From Chamaesiphon minutus PCC 6605 (GTDB lineage: Bacteria > Cyanobacteriota > Cyanobacteriia > Cyanobacteriales > Chamaesiphonaceae), in NCBI RefSeq assembly GCF_000317145.1, contig NC_019697.1, forward strand, positions 5,654,886 to 5,718,885: DNA of 64,000 bases. The letters are read 5' to 3'. The translations under genes and the position numbers were made by a program. Position 1 is the stretch's first letter; each line of letters begins with the position of its first letter. Positions 8,974 to 62,578 of the stretch are shown in pieces. The notes beneath the pieces are model-generated. The model searched no databases. It saw only the letters and a list, made by a program, of their open reading frames with translations, and was not told the DNA's origin.

Positions 8974-9243
8974 GTGACCGAAGATGATAAGTTTCCAGCA
9001 CCTGCTACACTTTCCGATCGAGAAGTAGAAATAATCGAACTGGTTACTGCTGGCTTGACTAATAAGGATATTGCCGATCGATTAGAAATTAGCAAACGTA
9101 CTGTAGATAACCACATTAGTAATATTCTGGAAAAAGCAGGTGCTGGTGTCGATAATCGGGTGGCTTTAGTCCGATGGGCACTTCAATGGGGCAAAGTTTG
9201 TCTGAATGATATTAATTGTTGTGCGTTACCAGAACGGGAGTAG
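8974..9243 (+). CDS. Small LuxR-type regulator, PedR-like
   Basis: About 89 residues, almost entirely one LuxR/GerE helix-turn-helix: LSDREVEIIELVTAGLTNKDIADRLEISKRTVDNHISNILEKAG, with no receiver domain. The tail WGKVCLNDINCCALP carries conserved cysteines. Size, lack of a receiver and C-terminal cysteines match PedR of Synechocystis, a regulator whose activity follows photosynthetic electron transport through thioredoxin and a Cys near residue 80. I chose the GTG at 8974 (VTEDDKF); a TTG at 8959 would add five residues. It stands alone, followed immediately by a heptamer array that begins at its TAG stop. The PedR assignment is an inference. Confidence 0.72.
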   Translation: MTEDDKFPAPATLSDREVEIIELVTAGLTNKDIADRLEISKRTVDNHISNILEKAGAGVDNRVALVRWALQWGKVCLNDINCCALPERE

Positions 9244-9321
9244 GTTTTAGGCTTTAGGTTTTAGGTTTTAGGCTTTAGGTTTTAGGTTTTAGGCTTTAGG
9301 CTTTAGGTTTTAGGCTTTAGG
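9241..9321 (+). repeat. Heptamer array (TTTAGGY)n
   Basis: About eleven tandem units alternating GGTTTTA and GGCTTTA. The first TAG is the stop codon of the upstream LuxR-type gene, so the array begins exactly at the gene end. This is a cyanobacterial short tandemly repeated repetitive sequence of the heptanucleotide type. Confidence 0.9.
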
Positions 9322-9501: not shown

Positions 9502-11034
9502 ATGGATTTTAATAATTTAGTTACCCAGCTCAATGCGGGGGCAATTTTGCCAGAAGGCATCGTCCTAACTACACTGCTGGTAGTTCTAGTTGGAGACTTA
9601 ATTCTGGGGCGCAGTGTTGCCCGCAACCTCTCCTATTTTGCTGTAGGCGGCTTAGTTTGCGCGATTGTCGCTCTAGTCTTGCAGTGGGATAATCCCCAGC
9701 CAGTAGCGTTTATTGGTGCGTATAGTAGCGATCCACTGAGTGTAGTGTTTCGGGCAATTGTCGTGCTATCGGCTGCTGTGACAATTCTGATGTCGATTCG
9801 TTATGTCGAGCAGACGGGAACTGCGCTAGCTGAATTCGTGGCAATTTTATTGACAGCGACTTTGGGGGGAATGTTTCTCGCTGGAGCTACCGAGCTAGTG
9901 ACGATTTTCGTGTCGTTGGAAACCCTGAGTATCTCATCGTATCTGATGACTGGGTACATGAAACGCGATCCGCGATCGAATGAAGCCGCCTTAAAATATC
10001 TATTGATTGGGGCGTCTAGTTCGGCGGTATTTTTGTACGGTGTATCTTTACTGTACGGTTTGTCTGGCGGGGAAACGACACTGGAGGCGATCGCGACGGG
10101 CATTGCTGCTGCTAGTGGTAGTCTATCGTTAGGCTTGGTTGTATCTCTGGTATTCGTAATTGCAGGAATCGCTTTTAAAATTTCGGCGGTACCCTTTCAC
10201 CAGTGGACGCCAGATGTTTATGAAGGTTCGCCAACTCCAGTAGTTGCCTTTTTGTCTGTCGGTTCCAAAGCGGCTGGCTTCGCGCTGGCAATTCGCTTAT
10301 TAGTTACCGCCTTCCCACAAGTTATCGAGCAGTGGCATTTTGTGTTTACCGCACTGGCGATTTTAAGTATGGTGTTGGGAAATGTCGTCGCCCTAGCGCA
10401 GACGAGTATGAAGCGGATGTTAGGATATTCCTCGATCGCTCAAGCTGGATTTGTGATGATTGGGATGGTTATCGGTACCGAGACTGGTTATGCGAGCATG
10501 GTATTTTACCTATTCGTCTATCTATTCATGAACTTGGGTGCTTTTGCCTGCGTAATCTTATTTACACTCCGGACGGGTACCGATCGCATTAGCGATTATG
10601 CTGGTCTATATCAAAAAGATCCATTCCTTACTCTGTCACTAAGTATTTGCTTGCTGTCGCTCGGCGGAATTCCACCCTTGGCTGGATTCTTCGGCAAAAT
10701 CTACATTTTTTGGGCTGGTTGGAAGGCTGGTGCTTATGGTTTAGTCTTACTCGCACTGGTAACTAGCGTCGTCTCCATTTACTACTACCTCCGCGTCGTC
10801 AAGATGATGGTAGTCAAAGAACCCAATGAAATGTCGGATGTCGTCAAAAACTATCCAGTTACTAATTGGAATCTCCCTGGAATGCGCTCGCTGCAAGTTG
10901 CTACTCTAGCAGGATTGATCGCGACATCCCTCGCAGGGATACTTTCCAATCCCCTATTTACGATCGCGAATGACTCTGTAAGCAACACGCCGATGTTGCA
11001 AGCTAGTTTACAGCGACAAGTGGCTGTGAAGTAG
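9502..11034 (+). CDS. ndhB: NAD(P)H-quinone oxidoreductase subunit 2 (NdhB)
   Basis: 510 residues, a polytopic thylakoid protein with about 14 membrane helices. N-terminal [19 protein letters not shown] is the cyanobacterial NdhB start. The proton-pumping antiporter-like core shows [20 protein letters not shown] (conserved Glu), [57 protein letters not shown] (conserved Lys residues) and [18 protein letters not shown]. It belongs to NDH-1, which works in respiration, cyclic electron flow around photosystem I and CO2 uptake. As is common in cyanobacteria, no other ndh gene adjoins it. The TAG stop is the first unit of a heptamer array. Confidence 0.96.
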
Positions 11035-11222
11035 GCTTTAGGCTTTAGGATTGAAAAATTAGGAGAGCGAGATGTTTAGATTTTAACTCTTCCTATCTCC
11101 TCAACTAAAAGCAACGCAACTGCCAACTCTTCACCTACCATCTAAAGCCTAACCCCTAGCACCTAAAACCTAACATCTAAAACCTAAAACCTAAAACCTA
11201 AAGCCTAACCCCTAACCCCTAA
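11032..11222. repeat. Foldback pair of heptamer arrays between ndhB and fmt
   Basis: TTTAGG units at 11032-11049 begin at the ndhB stop codon. CCTAAA-type units at 11141-11222 end 3 bp before the fmt start codon at 11226. The two runs are inverted relative to each other and could pair in RNA or cruciform DNA. The same arrangement recurs at 25962/26471, 54127/54191, 61196/61241 and 62438/62497. Confidence 0.85.
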
Positions 11223-11225
11223 CTT

Positions 11226-18235: not shown

Positions 18236-18991
18236 ATGCTCGCACTAAACATGTCGAATCATGCTACTGTTCCGCAACTTGGCACTGTCACCAATCGGAT
18301 TTTAGTAGTAGAAGATGAAGAGTCAATTAGAGAATTGCTCGTATTAGGTTTAGAAGAGGAGGGTTTTGAAGTAGTTGGTGTCGCTGACGGCCACACAGCT
18401 TTAGCAAAATGTCAAGCGTCAGATCCTCAATCTCAGGATTTTCCGTTCGATTTGATTATCCTCGATTTGATGTTGCCCAAAGTTAGCGGACTAGATTTGT
18501 GTAGGTTCCTCCGTTATCAAGGCAATCACGTCCCTATTTTAATCGTCAGTGCCAAAATCACCGAAACAGATCGAGTATTAGGTCTGGAAGTTGGTGCTGA
18601 TGACTACATTAGCAAACCTTTTAGTATGCGAGAGTTAATAGCGCGTTGTCGCGCGCTGCTCCGTCGCCATCGACTGAACGTAGCTGCGGATACGCCTGCA
18701 CTCCAGTTTCAAGACATTACACTCTATCCCGATGAATATCGCGTTGTCGTGCGCGGGGAGGGTGTCAACCTCTCGCCCAGAGAGTTTCGACTGCTGGAAC
18801 TATTCATCCAAAATCCCCGTCGAGTGTGGGCGCGAGAACAATTACTCGATCGAGTCTGGGGCATAGACTTCATCGGCGATCGCAAAACAGTTGATGTCCA
18901 CATCCGCTGGCTGCGAGAAAAACTCGAAATCGACCCCAGTCAACCGCAATATATTACTACCGTTCGCGGTTTTGGTTATCGGTTTGGGTAG
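18236..18991 (+). CDS. sphR: OmpR/PhoB-type response regulator, probable SphR
   Basis: About 252 residues. The receiver domain (ILVVEDEESIRELLVLGLEEEG; phospho-acceptor Asp in DLIILDLMLPKVSG; Lys in DDYISKPFS) is followed by an OmpR-type winged helix (LSPREFRLLELFIQNPRRVWAREQLLDRVWG, then RKTVDVHIRWLREKLE). With sphS and phoU close by, it is the best candidate for SphR, which activates phosphate-scavenging genes. The ATG at 18236 starts shortly before the receiver; in-frame codons back to 18029 would add an unconserved 69-residue extension, and ATG 18251 is an alternative. Its TAG stop opens a heptamer array. Confidence 0.8.
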   Translation: MLALNMSNHATVPQLGTVTNRILVVEDEESIRELLVLGLEEEGFEVVGVADGHTALAKCQASDPQSQDFPFDLIILDLMLPKVSGLDLCRFLRYQGNHVPILIVSAKITETDRVLGLEVGADDYISKPFSMRELIARCRALLRRHRLNVAADTPALQFQDITLYPDEYRVVVRGEGVNLSPREFRLLELFIQNPRRVWAREQLLDRVWGIDFIGDRKTVDVHIRWLREKLEIDPSQPQYITTVRGFGYRFG

Positions 18992-19180
18992 GCTTTAGGT
19001 TTTAGGCTTTAGGTTTTAGGTTTTAGGTTTTAGGTTTTAGGCTTTAGGTTTTAGGTTTTAGGCTTGAGGGGAAAGGGAAAATAAACCACATTACCCATCC
19101 ACCCATCCACCCACCCACCCTGTTGCTGAGCGAAGTCGAAGCATCCACCCATCCACCCATCCACCCATCCATCTATCCAC
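18989..19180 (+). repeat. Heptamer array plus (CCATCCAC)n array
   Basis: From the sphR stop codon, about eleven TTTAGG-type heptamers run to ~19068. At 19092-19180 follow units of CCATCCAC/ACCC, interrupted near 19125-19140 by unrelated sequence (gctgagcgaagtcgaagc). The second array runs up to the TTG start of the next gene. Related GGATGGGT arrays are at 12240, 17125 and 48950. Confidence 0.85.
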
Positions 19181-28737: not shown

Positions 28738-30093
28738 ATGTCTTTCTCTAAAATCTTAATTGCCAATCGGGGCGAAATCGCTCTGAGAATTATTCGTACC
28801 TGTGGCGAGATGGGGATTGGTACAGTTGCTGTGCATTCAACGATCGATCGCAAGGCTCTCCACGTTCAACTGGCTGACGAAGCCGTGTGTATCGGCGAAC
28901 CGATTGGAAGTAAAAGCTATCTGAATATCCCGAATATTATCTCGGCGGCTTTGACTCGCAATGCGACAGCCATTCATCCAGGCTATGGATTTCTGGCTGA
29001 GAACGCCCGATTTGCCGAAATCTGTGCCGATCATCATCTCACTTTTATCGGCCCTTCTCCAGCCGCCATGCGGGCGATGGGAGACAAATCTACCGCCAAG
29101 GAAACAATGAAACGCGTGGGCGTACCGACGGTACCTGGTAGCGATGGACTCCTCGCCGATGCCGATGAAGCTCTCAAAATTGCAGGTAAAATCGGCTATC
29201 CCGTCATGCTCAAAGCCACCGCTGGCGGCGGCGGACGTGGGATGCGACTGGTACACGAAGAGGCGGACTTAGTGCGGTTATATCATGCCGCTCAGGGCGA
29301 AGCTGAAGCCGCATTTGGTAACGGCGGCGTCTATGTCGAGAAATTTATCGAATGTCCGCGTCATATCGAGTTTCAAATCCTCGCCGATAACTATGGTAAT
29401 GTCATCCATCTGGGCGAACGCGATTGCTCGATCCAACGCCGCCATCAAAAATTACTAGAAGAAGCTCCCAGCCCAGCATTAACGCCCGAATTGCGTCAAA
29501 AAATGGGCGCAGCCGCGATCGCTGCTGCCAAATCGATCGATTATGCTGGAGTCGGCACGGTAGAATTCTTGCTCGACAAACACGGCGATTTCTACTTTAT
29601 GGAAATGAACACCCGCATCCAAGTCGAACATCCCGTGACTGAGGCGATTACCGGACTAGATTTGATCGCCGAGCAGATCCGAGTCGCTCAAGGGGAAAAG
29701 CTCTCCCTAACTCAGGAACAAGTCGTATTGAAAGGGCACTCGATCGAATGTCGCGTCAATGCCGAAGATCCCAACCACAATTTCCGACCATCCCCAGGTA
29801 GAATCACTGGTTATTTAGCACCAGGTGGCCCAGGAGTGCGGGTAGATTCTCATGTGTATACCGATTACGAAATTCCCCCATTTTACGACTCCCTGATTGG
29901 CAAATTAATCGTCTGGGGTGTCGACCGAGACATGGCAATTCGGCGGATGCGGCGGGCGTTGCGCGAATATGCAATTACTGGCGTCCCCACTACGATCGAT
30001 TTTCATCAACGCATTCTCGAACATCCAGGCTTTATTAAGGGTGAAGTTTATACTAACTTTGTGGAGCAAATGATGTCTAAGGAAGGACTATGA
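28738..30093 (+). CDS. accC: Acetyl-CoA carboxylase, biotin carboxylase subunit
   Basis: 451 residues. Biotin carboxylase N-terminal domain [23 protein letters not shown]-grasp domain with [35 protein letters not shown], and [18 protein letters not shown] (catalytic Glu/Asn/Arg), then the C-terminal domain with [12 protein letters not shown] and [11 protein letters not shown]. It carboxylates the biotin on AccB, the first step of fatty acid synthesis. accB is not adjacent. The last codons and stop, GGACTATGA, are the outer end of a 72-bp inverted repeat that surrounds the next gene. Confidence 0.96.
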
Positions 30094-30156
30094 TTTACTA
30101 TGATTGAGATGATTTACTATGATTGAGTTGTTGGCACGAGTGAAGACGGTGATGAT
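30085..30156 (+). repeat. 72-bp inverted repeat, left copy
   Basis: Matches the reverse complement of 30746-30817 at 69 of 72 positions. It begins with GGACTATGATT, which supplies the last codons and stop of accC, and contains two near-perfect units of tgatttactatgattgag. It flanks the GxxExxY gene on its left. Confidence 0.9.
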
Positions 30157-30277
30157 ATTCTGTGATTGATTTGTTTTTGCTAGTGATGATTGGCTTTAAT
30201 TTGAGATGATTGAGATGATGGACTACGATCTAAGTTGTTTGAGCGATCGAGGATGTTTACGATCGATCTGATAATGT

Positions 30278-30676
30278 ATGAGTGAAATTGTTAATCAGGA
30301 GTCATCCTATAAGCACTCGGATCTTACTGGCAAGATTATTGGCTGTGCAATGGAAGTGCATGGCTATATAGGCAATGGTTTTCAGGAAGTAATTTATCAA
30401 CGTGCCCTAGCTCTGGAAATGCAGGAGCGAGGACTGAGTTTTCAGCGCGAGTATCGAATGCAGATCTACTATAAAGGCGTGCATATTGGCACTAGGCGAG
30501 TCGATTTTTTTGTGGAGGGTAAGGTGATGTTAGAACTCAAAGCTGTTAGTCAGCTAGAAGATGTTCACCTAGCTCAAGCAATTAACTATTTGGAAGCCTC
30601 AGGCATAGAAATTGGGTTACTGATTAACTTTGGCAGTCGTAGTTTGCAGTTCAAGCGAGTAATGAAGCCCAAATGA
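30278..30676 (+). CDS. GxxExxY protein (PD-(D/E)XK nuclease-like)
   Basis: 132 residues. The name motif is in GFQEVIYQRAL (G-x-x-E-x-x-Y), preceded by LTGKIIGCAMEVHGYIGNG. The core RRVDFFVEGKVMLELKAVSQLED reads D-x(10)-ELK, the PD-(D/E)XK nuclease signature, and QAINYLEASGIEIGLLINFG ends the fold. These proteins are frequent and multi-copy in cyanobacteria; activity is unproven. The gene is the only one inside a 72-bp inverted repeat (30085-30156 / 30746-30817), which separates it from accC and the endolysin-like gene and suggests it arrived as a cassette. Confidence 0.85.
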   Translation: MSEIVNQESSYKHSDLTGKIIGCAMEVHGYIGNGFQEVIYQRALALEMQERGLSFQREYRMQIYYKGVHIGTRRVDFFVEGKVMLELKAVSQLEDVHLAQAINYLEASGIEIGLLINFGSRSLQFKRVMKPK

Positions 30677-30745
30677 TAATTGGACTAGATCTAGTGATTA
30701 GTTCGATCGCTATCTTCCATCAAACGATCGGCTTCATCAAAATAA

Positions 30746-30817
30746 ATCATCACTGCCTTCACTCGTGCCAACAACTCAATCATAGTAAATCATCTCAATC
30801 ATAGTTAATCATAGTCC
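30746..30817 (-). repeat. 72-bp inverted repeat, right copy
   Basis: Inverted partner of 30085-30156 with three mismatches. Its outer end supplies the GGACTATGA that ends the endolysin-like gene on the minus strand, mirroring the accC end on the other side. Confidence 0.9.
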
Positions 30818-31468
30818 CGATTCCTCCTTCACTAACCTCTGATAAATACCCGCCAATTTAGGCGTGATGCTATTAGTTTCAATCCCATAACCCAAGCTCG
30901 TCCAGGTGCTAGACAACCGCTTTCTAACCTCCTCCAACTTGCCATCTTTTAATAACTGCGGAATATTCATATTCCAGGCACTTTCGTCGCTGAGCCAAGC
31001 GTGAACTACTGCATCTTGATACTCTGGCTCGAAACTATAAGTACACTGAAAAAAGAAGAGCAAGCAATCGGGTTGAGGATGATATTTCTTGGCCATTCTA
31101 AACCAAGTTGTATTAATCATTTGATAGCGTCCCGCTGCTGTAGAACAATTATTGATATTCGGCCCACTAACGATCCGAATGCACTTTTCGGGATGACGAT
31201 CGAGAGTTTTGGCATGACTGCCACCATATATTACCGAATAGGGTTGTCGATCGCTGGCTTCGCTAGCGGCAATTGTCCGCATTAAGGCGCGAATGTAGGG
31301 GTTGCCACCTTTCATCACCAAGGGTGGATGGCGCGTAGTATCGAAGGTGGGACTTTGGCTCTGACGCCGGGATGGGTGGCGCAATACTAATAGCAACAAG
31401 CAGAGCGAAACTAGACAACCGATCGCAATTGCGATCGGTTTAACACGGCTGGGTTTGAGGATATCCAT
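30809..31468 (-). CDS. Membrane-anchored lambda-endolysin-like muramidase (GH104-like)
   Basis: 219 residues. A short cytoplasmic start and one transmembrane helix (~10-28, PIAIAIGCLVSLCLLLLVL) are followed by a Ser/Arg-rich linker and a lysozyme-like domain: LMRTIAASEASDRQPYSVIYGGSH (catalytic Glu in ASEASD), HPEKCIRIVSGPNINNCSTAAGRYQMINTTWF, and YQDAVVHAWL. This is the signature of lambda R-type transglycosylases, normally phage proteins that cleave glycan strands. A signal-anchor form in a chromosomal context points to a domesticated cell-wall enzyme. No phage genes are near. Its stop lies in the 72-bp inverted repeat. Confidence 0.82.
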   Translation of the reverse strand: MDILKPSRVKPIAIAIGCLVSLCLLLLVLRHPSRRQSQSPTFDTTRHPPLVMKGGNPYIRALMRTIAASEASDRQPYSVIYGGSHAKTLDRHPEKCIRIVSGPNINNCSTAAGRYQMINTTWFRMAKKYHPQPDCLLFFFQCTYSFEPEYQDAVVHAWLSDESAWNMNIPQLLKDGKLEEVRKRLSSTWTSLGYGIETNSITPKLAGIYQRLVKEESGL

Positions 31469-48861: not shown

Positions 48862-48949
48862 AAATCTCCGACTTGAGAGTACGATCGGTCACGTTTAGAC
48901 TCGTCTATTCATACTATACAAAGCTTTGTCCCATCTGGGGAGGGGGAAG

Positions 48950-48985
48950 GGTGGATGGGTGGATGGGTGGATGGGTGAATGGGTA
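48950..48985 (+). repeat. (GGATGGGT)n array
   Basis: Four to five tandem GGTGGATG units in the spacer between the DUF502 gene and the HpsJ-like gene. The complementary motif appears at 19092-19180, and shorter runs near 12240 and 17125. Confidence 0.75.
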
Positions 48986-61333: not shown

Positions 61334-62437
61334 ATGTCCGAATTAATGATCGAAGACCTAATGGAGCGACTGGTCGAAATGGGTGGCTCCGATATGCACA
61401 TTCAGGCAGGCGCGCCTGTCTACTTTCGCGTCAGCGGCAAACTAGCACCTGTTGGCGAAGAACCGCTCAGTCCCCAAGAGTGTCAAAAACTGATATTCAG
61501 TATGCTCAATAATACTCAACGCAAGGAGCTAGAGCAGACGTGGGAAATCGATTGCTCTTATGGAGTCAAAGGCTTGGCGCGGTTTCGGGTCAACGTCTAT
61601 AAAGAACGCGGTTGTTATGCCGCTTGTTTGCGGGCACTATCTTCTAAAATCCCCAACTTCGATCAGATGGGTTTGCCGGAAATCGTCAGGGAAATGAGCG
61701 GTCGTCCCAGAGGATTAATTTTGGTAACTGGGCCGACTGGTTCTGGCAAAACTACCACGATGGCGGCCATGATCGATCTGATCAACCGCACTCGCGCCGA
61801 GCACATTTTAACGATCGAGGATCCGGTCGAGTATGTCTTTCCCAATATCAAAAGCCTCGTTCACCAGCGTCAAAAAGGTGAGGATACCAAAAGTTTCTCC
61901 AATGCCCTTAGAGCGGCATTACGGGAAGATCCAGACGTGATCTTGGTAGGAGAATTACGGGACTTGGAAACGATTAGTTTGGCAATTAGTGCTGCTGAAA
62001 CCGGACACTTAGTTATGGGTACACTGCACACCAGCTCAGCCGCACAAACAATCGATCGGATGCTAGATGTGTTTCCTCCCGAACAACAACCTCAAATCCG
62101 CGCGCAGTTATCGAATTCCTTGGTGGCGGTCTTCAGTCAATCTCTCGTCCAAAAGAAAAAACCCAAACCGGGTGAGTACGGACGAGTGTTGGTACAAGAA
62201 ATCATGATTGTCACGCCCGCCATCTCCAACCTAATTCGTGAAGGTAAAACCGCTCAAATCTATAGCGCGATTCAAACAGGAGCGAAATTAGGGATGAACA
62301 CAATGGAATCGATCCTCGCCAAACATATCCGCGAAGGCACTATTTCCTTTGAAGCTGGCATCTCCAAATCTTCCCGGCCAGACGAACTCCAACGTCTAAT
62401 TGGAGCTACACCAATGGCAGCGACAAATGGTCGGTAA
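61334..62437 (+). CDS. pilT: Type IV pilus retraction ATPase PilT
   Basis: 367 residues. N-terminal PAS-like domain with MGGSDMHIQAGAPVYFRVSGKL. ATPase core: Walker A GPTGSGKTTTMAAMIDL, Asp box ILTIEDPVEYVFPNIKSLVHQRQ, Walker B ALREDPDVILVGELRDLETI, His box AETGHLVMGTLHTSSA. Length and the absence of a T2SSE_N domain and zinc cysteines distinguish it from PilB. It drives pilus retraction, needed for twitching motility and phototaxis. The gene is 144 bp behind pilB. Confidence 0.95.
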   Translation: MSELMIEDLMERLVEMGGSDMHIQAGAPVYFRVSGKLAPVGEEPLSPQECQKLIFSMLNNTQRKELEQTWEIDCSYGVKGLARFRVNVYKERGCYAACLRALSSKIPNFDQMGLPEIVREMSGRPRGLILVTGPTGSGKTTTMAAMIDLINRTRAEHILTIEDPVEYVFPNIKSLVHQRQKGEDTKSFSNALRAALREDPDVILVGELRDLETISLAISAAETGHLVMGTLHTSSAAQTIDRMLDVFPPEQQPQIRAQLSNSLVAVFSQSLVQKKKPKPGEYGRVLVQEIMIVTPAISNLIREGKTAQIYSAIQTGAKLGMNTMESILAKHIREGTISFEAGISKSSRPDELQRLIGATPMAATNGR

Positions 62438-62578
62438 TTAGGCTTTAGGTTTTAGGCTTTAGGCTTTAGCGAATCTGCGTAAAGCAGCTATTCTGCTAAC
62501 CCTTAAACCCTAAACTCTACCACGACATCTAACACCTAATACCTAATATTCAACACCTAACACTTAATACCTAAACAT
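62438..62578. repeat. Foldback heptamer repeats between pilT and pilC
   Basis: TTTAGG-type units at 62438-62469, starting right at the pilT stop, and CCTAAA/CCTAATA units at 62497-62578 just before the pilC ATG at 62585. The pair is inverted. Confidence 0.75.

Follow-up and report, generated by a model that had tools for sequence, protein, structure and literature searches.

The 64,000-nt stretch of the Chamaesiphon minutus PCC 6605 chromosome analyzed here (the window) contains a GxxExxY gene (30278–30676, + strand, 132 aa) enclosed by an inverted repeat. The left arm (30085–30156, + strand) and the right arm (30746–30817, − strand) are identical at 69 of 72 positions, and the match continues at lower identity to 82 nt (30085–30166 and 30736–30817, 91%). 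An earlier note had read these inverted copies, and the enclosure of the GxxExxY gene alone, from the bare sequence. Realignment bore out both points: the flank alignment scored 129, whereas the best of 1000 shuffles reached 35, and the gene is the sole ORF of ≥60 aa between the arms. Among 87 window ORFs tested with 350-nt flanks it ranked first, followed by 9502–11034 (score 91) and 61334–62437 (score 41). The element has terminal inverted repeats (69/72), as insertion sequences do. Searches of its ORFs of ≥60 aa against Pfam and NCBIfam detected no transposase gene, and no tyrosine (Y1, HUH) transposase gene lies beside the repeats, the GxxExxY gene being the one such ORF inside.

The arms consist of ACTATGATT-like units with periods of ~10 and 19 nt (Tandem Repeats Finder). 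In the left arm, tandem units span 30087–30127 (+ strand), resolved either as a ~10-nt ACTATGATTT or as two copies of a 19-nt ATGATTTACTATGATTGAG (Tandem Repeats Finder intervals 30087–30124 and 30090–30127). A diverged unit copy of direct repeat family D1 lies between the left arm and the gene (30194–30229, + strand, 78% identity to the reference copy). The arms also carry GGACTATGATT plus AGTTGTTGGCACGAGTGAAG, a tract that is part of their identical stretch and does not resemble the units. Both begin with GGACTATGA (30085–30093 and the inverted copy 30809–30817), and the observation that each provides the stop codon of a convergent neighbor held up. On the left, the host gene accC (biotin carboxylase; 28738–30093, + strand; Pfam PF02786/PF00289/PF02785) has its last codons, GGA CTA TGA, within the arm. 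On the right, the final codons GGA CTA TGA of a 219-aa ORF (30809–31468, − strand), initially labelled endolysin-like and without a Pfam or NCBIfam match at E 0.001, are supplied by the arm.

The genome itself (6.76 Mb) was searched for further copies, as the earlier note had proposed, and yielded a single GxxExxY gene and no third 72-bp repeat: a query of 30070–30290 recovered the right arm, and the best other match (24 nt, E 0.0013) fell on a different part of the query. A covariance model of gene-less palindromes (see below) gave no match in this genome at E 1e-3, and with filters off it scored 13.9 bits (E 0.065) at the window locus. Two gene-less arrays, TGTAAATCCTGTAAATCC...AATCATAGTCTGCC, occur elsewhere in the genome (locus L005, ~1480–1640, near G000:C1:4627379-4627474) and are possibly remnants of a related element of the same arm type.

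Conservation and predicted fold of the GxxExxY protein

The window protein is a clear member of TIGR04256 (GxxExxY; 142.8 bits, cut-off 35, model positions 2–116 of 116) and of PF13366 (PDDEXK_3; 134.5 bits, cut-off 22), its only Pfam match. Across 46 sequences, the GxxExxY-motif residues E37 and Y40 were invariant, as were D76 and K88, and E86 (≥90%), Q100 and Y104 were nearly so, defining the conserved motifs E37 (GxxExxY), D76, E86-x-K88 and Q100-x3-Y104. The best structural match of the AlphaFold2 model (pLDDT 88.7, pTM 0.81) was SSO0001 (4ic1; Foldseek E 8.9e-5; Z 9.8 over 99 residues, 3.2 Å, 15% identity), which we take to be a Cas4-type nuclease. Further fold matches were exonuclease or restriction-like with Z <8 and carry little weight alone, and a sequence-profile search of solved structures returned no match at E 1. 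Conservation and fold matches together place D...ExK in the common core fold of PD-(D/E)XK enzymes, and ExK and QxxxY are presumably the named motifs of Cas4/RecB-like nucleases. The protein is predicted from this model to be a Cas4/RecB-like nuclease, which it resembles in its best structural match and in both motifs, but from which it differs in its low identity (15%) and shorter length.

Proteins 67–83% identical to that of the window, among the best 80 of 460 relatives, occur on contigs labelled Bacteroidota, Chloroflexota, Chlorobi, Gammaproteobacteria, Nitrospirae and cyanobacteria; many of these contigs are metagenome bins in which mis-binning is possible, and some of the phylum labels were assigned from genus names. 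The spread is most simply explained by horizontal transfer. The open PMC text searched, outside which most subscription journals lie, held no link of GxxExxY or PF13366 to repeats and no function for GxxExxY; the mention seen was a remark on a neighboring gene.

Inverted unit arrays around GxxExxY genes

Enclosure by inverted repeats was assessed with a flank test, in which 350 nt 5′ of a gene were aligned locally to the reverse complement of 350 nt 3′ and scored as positive above 99.9% of pooled shuffles. The order set comprised 148 genomes and 103 rows (90 loci used, the window's included, one row inside a fetched locus and 12 left out), with enough flank at 88 of the 90 loci. The genome_contigs set comprised the best 80 of 460 relatives (78 with a complete ORF, 77 with enough flank). 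At least four loci were common to both sets, and the merged set was thinned to 85% protein identity. Flanking inverted repeats were found at 86 of 120 non-redundant GxxExxY loci versus 5 of 270 control ORFs taken from those loci (p 2e-51). Before thinning, the proportions were 72/88 versus 5/86 in the order and 50/77 versus 3/277 in the genome_contigs set. Within the order, the window's subfamily had inverted repeats at 15 of 25 loci and the rest at 55 of 63. The gene lay inside a single palindrome in 32 cases, 26 of them 435–569 bp long. Sequence comparison thus shows inverted arrays of short units around most GxxExxY genes, with the unit differing by locus, and the window element is a case of this class-wide arrangement and no local curiosity. 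The earlier note had considered such a gene without a transposase or target duplication unusual; the transposase is indeed absent and no target duplication was found, but for the GxxExxY family the lack of a transposase is the rule. Relatives carrying the gene without flanking repeats, named there as an argument against a cassette, do exist in part (34 of the 120 loci by the flank test).

This association bears on whether the window arms are ordinary repeats of convergent genes. Cyanobacterial short tandemly repeated repetitive sequences (STRR) place short tandem units at gene ends with a 7-nt tandem period, and repeats of this sort, acting as terminators, might have come to lie on both sides of a GxxExxY gene by accident. 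Five relatives with accC beside the convergent gene in the fetched locus (L015, L018, L019, L020, L023) have no GxxExxY gene at that junction and, by eye, no 72-bp repeat in the spacer. Three of these gene-free junctions (L015, L019, L020) carry other short repeats by eye, and heptamer arrays at 9241–9321 and 11132–11223 flank another window gene, both of which fit an ordinary-repeat origin. But the repeats of the relatives are, by eye, unrelated to the window arms, and the arm taken singly folds no better than its shuffles (z +0.81); a terminator or hairpin reading of the arm was rejected on the latter ground. The window arms also differ from STRR in pairing as inverted sets around one gene family and in their periods of ~10 or 19 nt. 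With the family-wide association already disfavoring it, we regard an ordinary-repeat origin as very improbable. Given the fold value and the lack of a junction hairpin in relatives, a duplicated terminator that captured the gene, one of two origins offered in the earlier note, is not supported as a general account; the repeat is not conserved as a plain convergent-gene hairpin in the five relatives. The other origin, a cassette inserted between two genes, is supported by the absence of both gene and repeat in those relatives, as well as by the usual enclosure of GxxExxY genes by their own inverted repeats.

Arms of the window's subfamily (type 1) follow roughly the pattern GTCTGAACTATGATT-nnnn-TGATT-nnn-TGA-nn-ACTATGATT, and units in other subfamilies include CGCAGAG, CACAAAG, CGCGAAG, CGCCAAG, CACGGAG, CGCAGATG and CACAGATG. 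For the variable unit letters of 50 loci, left and right arms agreed at 0.91 within a locus and 0.53 between loci, the former partly by construction, as these loci were picked for self-aligning arms. Unit type followed the protein tree in 50 loci (22 changes versus 36.6 over 500 label shuffles, minimum 30), an agreement that vertical inheritance of gene and arms together would also explain. No protein position covaried convincingly with the unit letters among the positions listed. By eye, type-1 elements at L073, L088, L113 and others of L064–L143 adjoin type I restriction-modification-like genes. One scan of viral contigs yielded two GxxExxY loci, one with a type-1 left arm 5′ of the gene; at L338, on a viral-classed contig (IMGVR_UViG_3300005058_000014, 37.8 kb), a type-1 left arm accompanies a GxxExxY protein 66% identical.

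Placement at gene junctions

A type-1 left arm was recognizable in 61 of 78 genome_contigs loci (from the best 80 of 460 relatives). In raw counts that carry no random-insertion baseline, an upstream same-strand frame entered the left arm in 31 of 61 loci and in 30 it stopped within the first 30 nt; 28 of 65 right arms had an ORF of ≥80 codons starting ≤40 nt beyond them, the distance being ≤8 nt in at least 23 cases and the start often reading GAC-AATG; and neighbors lay on the same strand upstream in 66 of 74 and downstream in 61 of 76. The stops fell at offsets 6–7 or 13–14 in 22 of the 30 cases, corresponding to the TGA of GTCTGA or ACTATGA. Type-1 elements occupy gene junctions and in many cases provide the stop codon for the gene upstream. 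Because 30 of 61 left arms do so, the sharing of stop codons in the window is a habit of the class.

Of 29 readable dndD-dndE junctions, 7 contained a type-2 form; the junctions were sampled as the 30 best DndE loci of 328 genomes matching among 388 (L230 has no dndD). The remaining 22 gave no GxxExxY match, with five of their spacers (>330 bp) left unread and three overlapping. The seven dndD-dndE elements (L219, L221, L222, L224, L225, L226, L227) have CRCAGATG-like units, and in three of them (L221, L222, L225) the halves are doubled, as recombination between units might produce.

Comparisons with element-free relatives gave no clean empty site with a target duplication at accC, at dndD-dndE or in genera g59 and g18. 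In 11 genomes of genus g59 (L336 and L337 left out), none was found for L154 (type 1) or L207 (type 2); L154 had a sharp right boundary and a rearranged left part. In genus g18, an array-bearing insertion of ~230 bp in G074 is missing from G026, and within the 12-kb region the syntenic piece of G053 has no array within 4 mismatches. At the ends of the G074 insertion the two BLAST pieces share 19 bases of G026; these may be an imperfect direct repeat, and we do not count them as a target duplication. At the accC junction, the comparison of accC 3′ regions advised in the earlier note succeeded insofar as gene and repeat are both missing from the five relatives; these are too diverged to give exact insertion joints, and the search for an empty site that it had also advised found no clean one. 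Unrelated short tandem or inverted repeats (GGAATAG/CTATCCC, TTGAAAG/CTTTCAA and others) occur at the same gene ends in L015, L018, L019 and L020, so the site seems prone to repeats.

The ends of the neighboring genes offer a view of the local history. Among the accC relatives compared, three of nine have the ending ...EGL* or ...DGL* (G001 GGGCTGTAA, 97.1%; G005 GGACTATAA, 96.0%; G003 GGATTGTAA, 94.9%), including the closest two (G001, G005), and six end differently; as three of nine share it, a Gly-Leu ending may well be original to accC. The ...EESGL* ending of the window's convergent gene recurs in none of the nine relatives listed for it (e.g. ...EELGKKN*, ...EELAQKN*), which suggests that the right arm replaced this gene's end. 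The element would have arrived between convergent accC and its neighbor, replacing the end of the latter, and the near-perfect arms suggest either a recent insertion or homogenization between arms. Either an element with arms starting in this unit inserted where the sequence matched, or a later event placed an inverted copy of the accC-side arm onto the neighbor. The second history would be layered, with insertion beside accC followed by an inverted duplication or template switch that carried the arm with GGACTATGA onto the neighbor's end; it would add to a mobile origin of the element and not replace it. The Gly-Leu-stop of accC in G001, G005 and G003 (GGACTATAA in G005), not seen in the nine relatives listed for the neighbor, is in line with this, as are the AGTTGTTGGCACGAGTGAAG tract, which is unlike the units yet within the identical stretch, and the arm score of 129, type-1 loci of the order having a median of 35. 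But ACTATGATT also belongs to the consensus of type-1 arms, so the match at the accC end may reflect chance or target preference, and six of nine accC relatives end otherwise. We consider the layered history possible, with the balance tilted against it.

Gene-less copies and a candidate nuclease-only element

Gene-less forms of the elements occur as ~90-nt hairpins or solo arrays. Type-1 loci contained 45 candidate gene-less palindromes with the same ends (counted before removal of nested and duplicate ones), 32 of them 80–119 nt long. Eight miniatures all folded into strong hairpins (z −4.0 to −7.9), as expected from their selection for complementary ends. A covariance model built on 26 palindromes, one of them from order genome G004, and applied to at most 27 scored candidates per genome, matched in 14 of 148 genomes: 8 of 22 with a type-1 gene (presence cut E 1e-38) versus 6 of 126 others (p 1.2e-4), or 7 of 21 without G004 (p 4.5e-4). 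All eight palindrome-positive genomes with the gene had matches away from it. Type-1 palindromes were also present in 4 of 77 genomes without a GxxExxY gene.

An array pattern representing the other main type occurred in 69 of 148 genomes, with up to 133 copies, and its backward control in none of the 148. The pattern was derived from arms found in the same genomes. Its counts include the arms of the gene itself (at most ~2 per gene), so higher copy cuts weigh more. It was present in 48 of 71 gene-positive versus 21 of 77 gene-negative genomes, the former including genomes with gene fragments only; at ≥5 copies the proportions were 35/71 versus 12/77 (p 1.6e-5) and at ≥20 copies 21/71 versus 2/77 (p 4.7e-6), with total copies of 1531 versus 209. 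Gene-less copies are, by these sequence counts, commoner where a GxxExxY gene is present. Twenty 20-kb stretches from G026 contained 17 arrays (≤2 mismatches), mostly solo, two being the arms of the resident gene. Many-copy inverted doublets like REPINs were seen for the class, but neither the repeat query nor the palindrome model (E 1e-3) showed them in the window's own genome. Partial or frame-broken GxxExxY genes occur in G056, G126, G146, G031, G044 and G130, some of which are still array-rich (64 copies in G126). Such persistence of arrays beside broken genes is as expected if copies outlive the gene.

The arm type of the resident gene was over-represented among dispersed copies in three of six genomes (G063, G097, G025) and not in the other three (G041, G129, G142), in a comparison that draws on 99 arrays tabulated among the matches listed, with copies beside resident genes, the last 12 listed for G142, all of G113 and genomes without a comparable gene omitted, and G081 tabulated but outside the six.

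We consider it probable, at roughly 0.6, that 30085–30817 is a repeat-bounded element with a nuclease as its only gene, functioning in the manner of RAYT/REPIN but through an unrelated enzyme. The GxxExxY nuclease would recognize its own arm units, as duplex or as the single strand of a hairpin, and cut at them; host repair or replication would then copy the element or its gene-less derivatives to new places, in analogy to REPINs, which are thought to be spread by RAYT transposases. By this mechanism the nuclease itself would move the element. Support comes from the enclosure of 86/120 genes versus 5/270 controls, units that track the protein tree, arms that agree within a locus (partly by construction), copies that follow the gene, hairpin miniatures, palindromes enclosing the gene, placement at stop codons and ORF starts, conserved catalytic residues with a Cas4/RecB-like model, and presence or absence at dndD-dndE (7/29). 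Against it stand the lack of observed movement and of a clean empty site with target duplication, the 34/120 loci without an inverted repeat (with the window's subfamily at 15/25 in the order), a genome of its own that holds the 72-bp repeat as two copies only and no palindrome match, gene-free genomes with arrays (21/77) or type-1 palindromes (4/77), dispersed units matching resident arms in only 3/6 genomes, no listed protein position tied to unit letters, and vertical inheritance of gene and arms as another source of the tree agreement.

In a rival reading, repeats and gene form one element that another enzyme moves, such as a host transposase acting in trans or replication and repair at palindromes, with GxxExxY as a passenger, a hairpin resolver, or a defense or toxin gene profiting from the repeats. 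Arrays and palindromes in genomes without the gene (21/77 and 4/77), dispersed units that match the resident gene in 3/6 genomes only and the doubled halves at dndD-dndE are compatible with such an agent, and PD-(D/E)XK enzymes are not known as classical transposases. But in most elements GxxExxY has no companion gene (length 435–569 bp for 26 of 32 enclosing palindromes), unit type co-varies with the protein and copy number tracks the gene, which makes a different enzyme unlikely.

Extended to the whole family, mobilization by the nuclease would mean that GxxExxY proteins move a large undescribed class of minimal elements across bacterial phyla, each with a single Cas4/RecB-like nuclease and inverted unit arrays that it recognizes, alongside thousands of gene-less hairpins or solo arrays (CGCAGAG-, CACAAAG-, CGCAGATG- and ACTATGATT-type). 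As a PD-(D/E)XK counterpart of RAYT/REPIN, such elements would insert at gene junctions and lend stop codons; for this wider proposal we put the chances slightly below even.

Insertion sequences and MITEs have terminal inverted repeats, a single gene and gene-less miniatures; unlike them, the GxxExxY element has no known transposase, and no target duplication was seen. The REPIN/RAYT system, in the part of its description consulted, pairs one small protein gene with adjacent short-repeat copies, has many gene-less, hairpin-forming inverted doublets and several repeat flavors each beside its own gene, and leaves the mechanism unsettled (PMC3116915). GxxExxY elements as a class share with it the one small gene beside repeats, the gene-less hairpin doublets and a flavor per gene. 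In contrast, the enzyme is a predicted PD-(D/E)XK nuclease and not a tyrosine transposase, the arms are arrays of several units where a REPIN is one small palindrome, and in many type-1 elements the gene itself lies inside, with stop codons of neighbors at the ends. With an unrelated enzyme, the GxxExxY element is not a member of RAYT/REPIN. In kind it is a repeat-bounded single gene with non-autonomous copies, and its link between GxxExxY and repeats is new to the portion of the literature searched.

Short dispersed repeats of these types are common in the order (one pattern in 69/148 genomes), and that literature assigns them no agent. In contigs of Bacteroidota, Chloroflexota and others (best 80 of 460), the gene is likewise found together with type-1 repeats. 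Flavors tied to one gene family point to a concrete enzyme, which could explain both repeats and gene. If this is correct, a spreading element whose only gene encodes a nuclease, and no transposase, would extend the range of enzymes known to mobilize DNA.

The window contains further arrays of short units. Heptamer arrays of the TAGGTTT type lie at 9241–9321, 11132–11223, 18989–19062 and 62438–62469, the first two inverted around ORF 9502–11034 (flank score 91). Octamer arrays, CATCCACC and GGATGGGT, occur in inverted orientation ~30 kb apart at 19142–19180 and 48945–48984.
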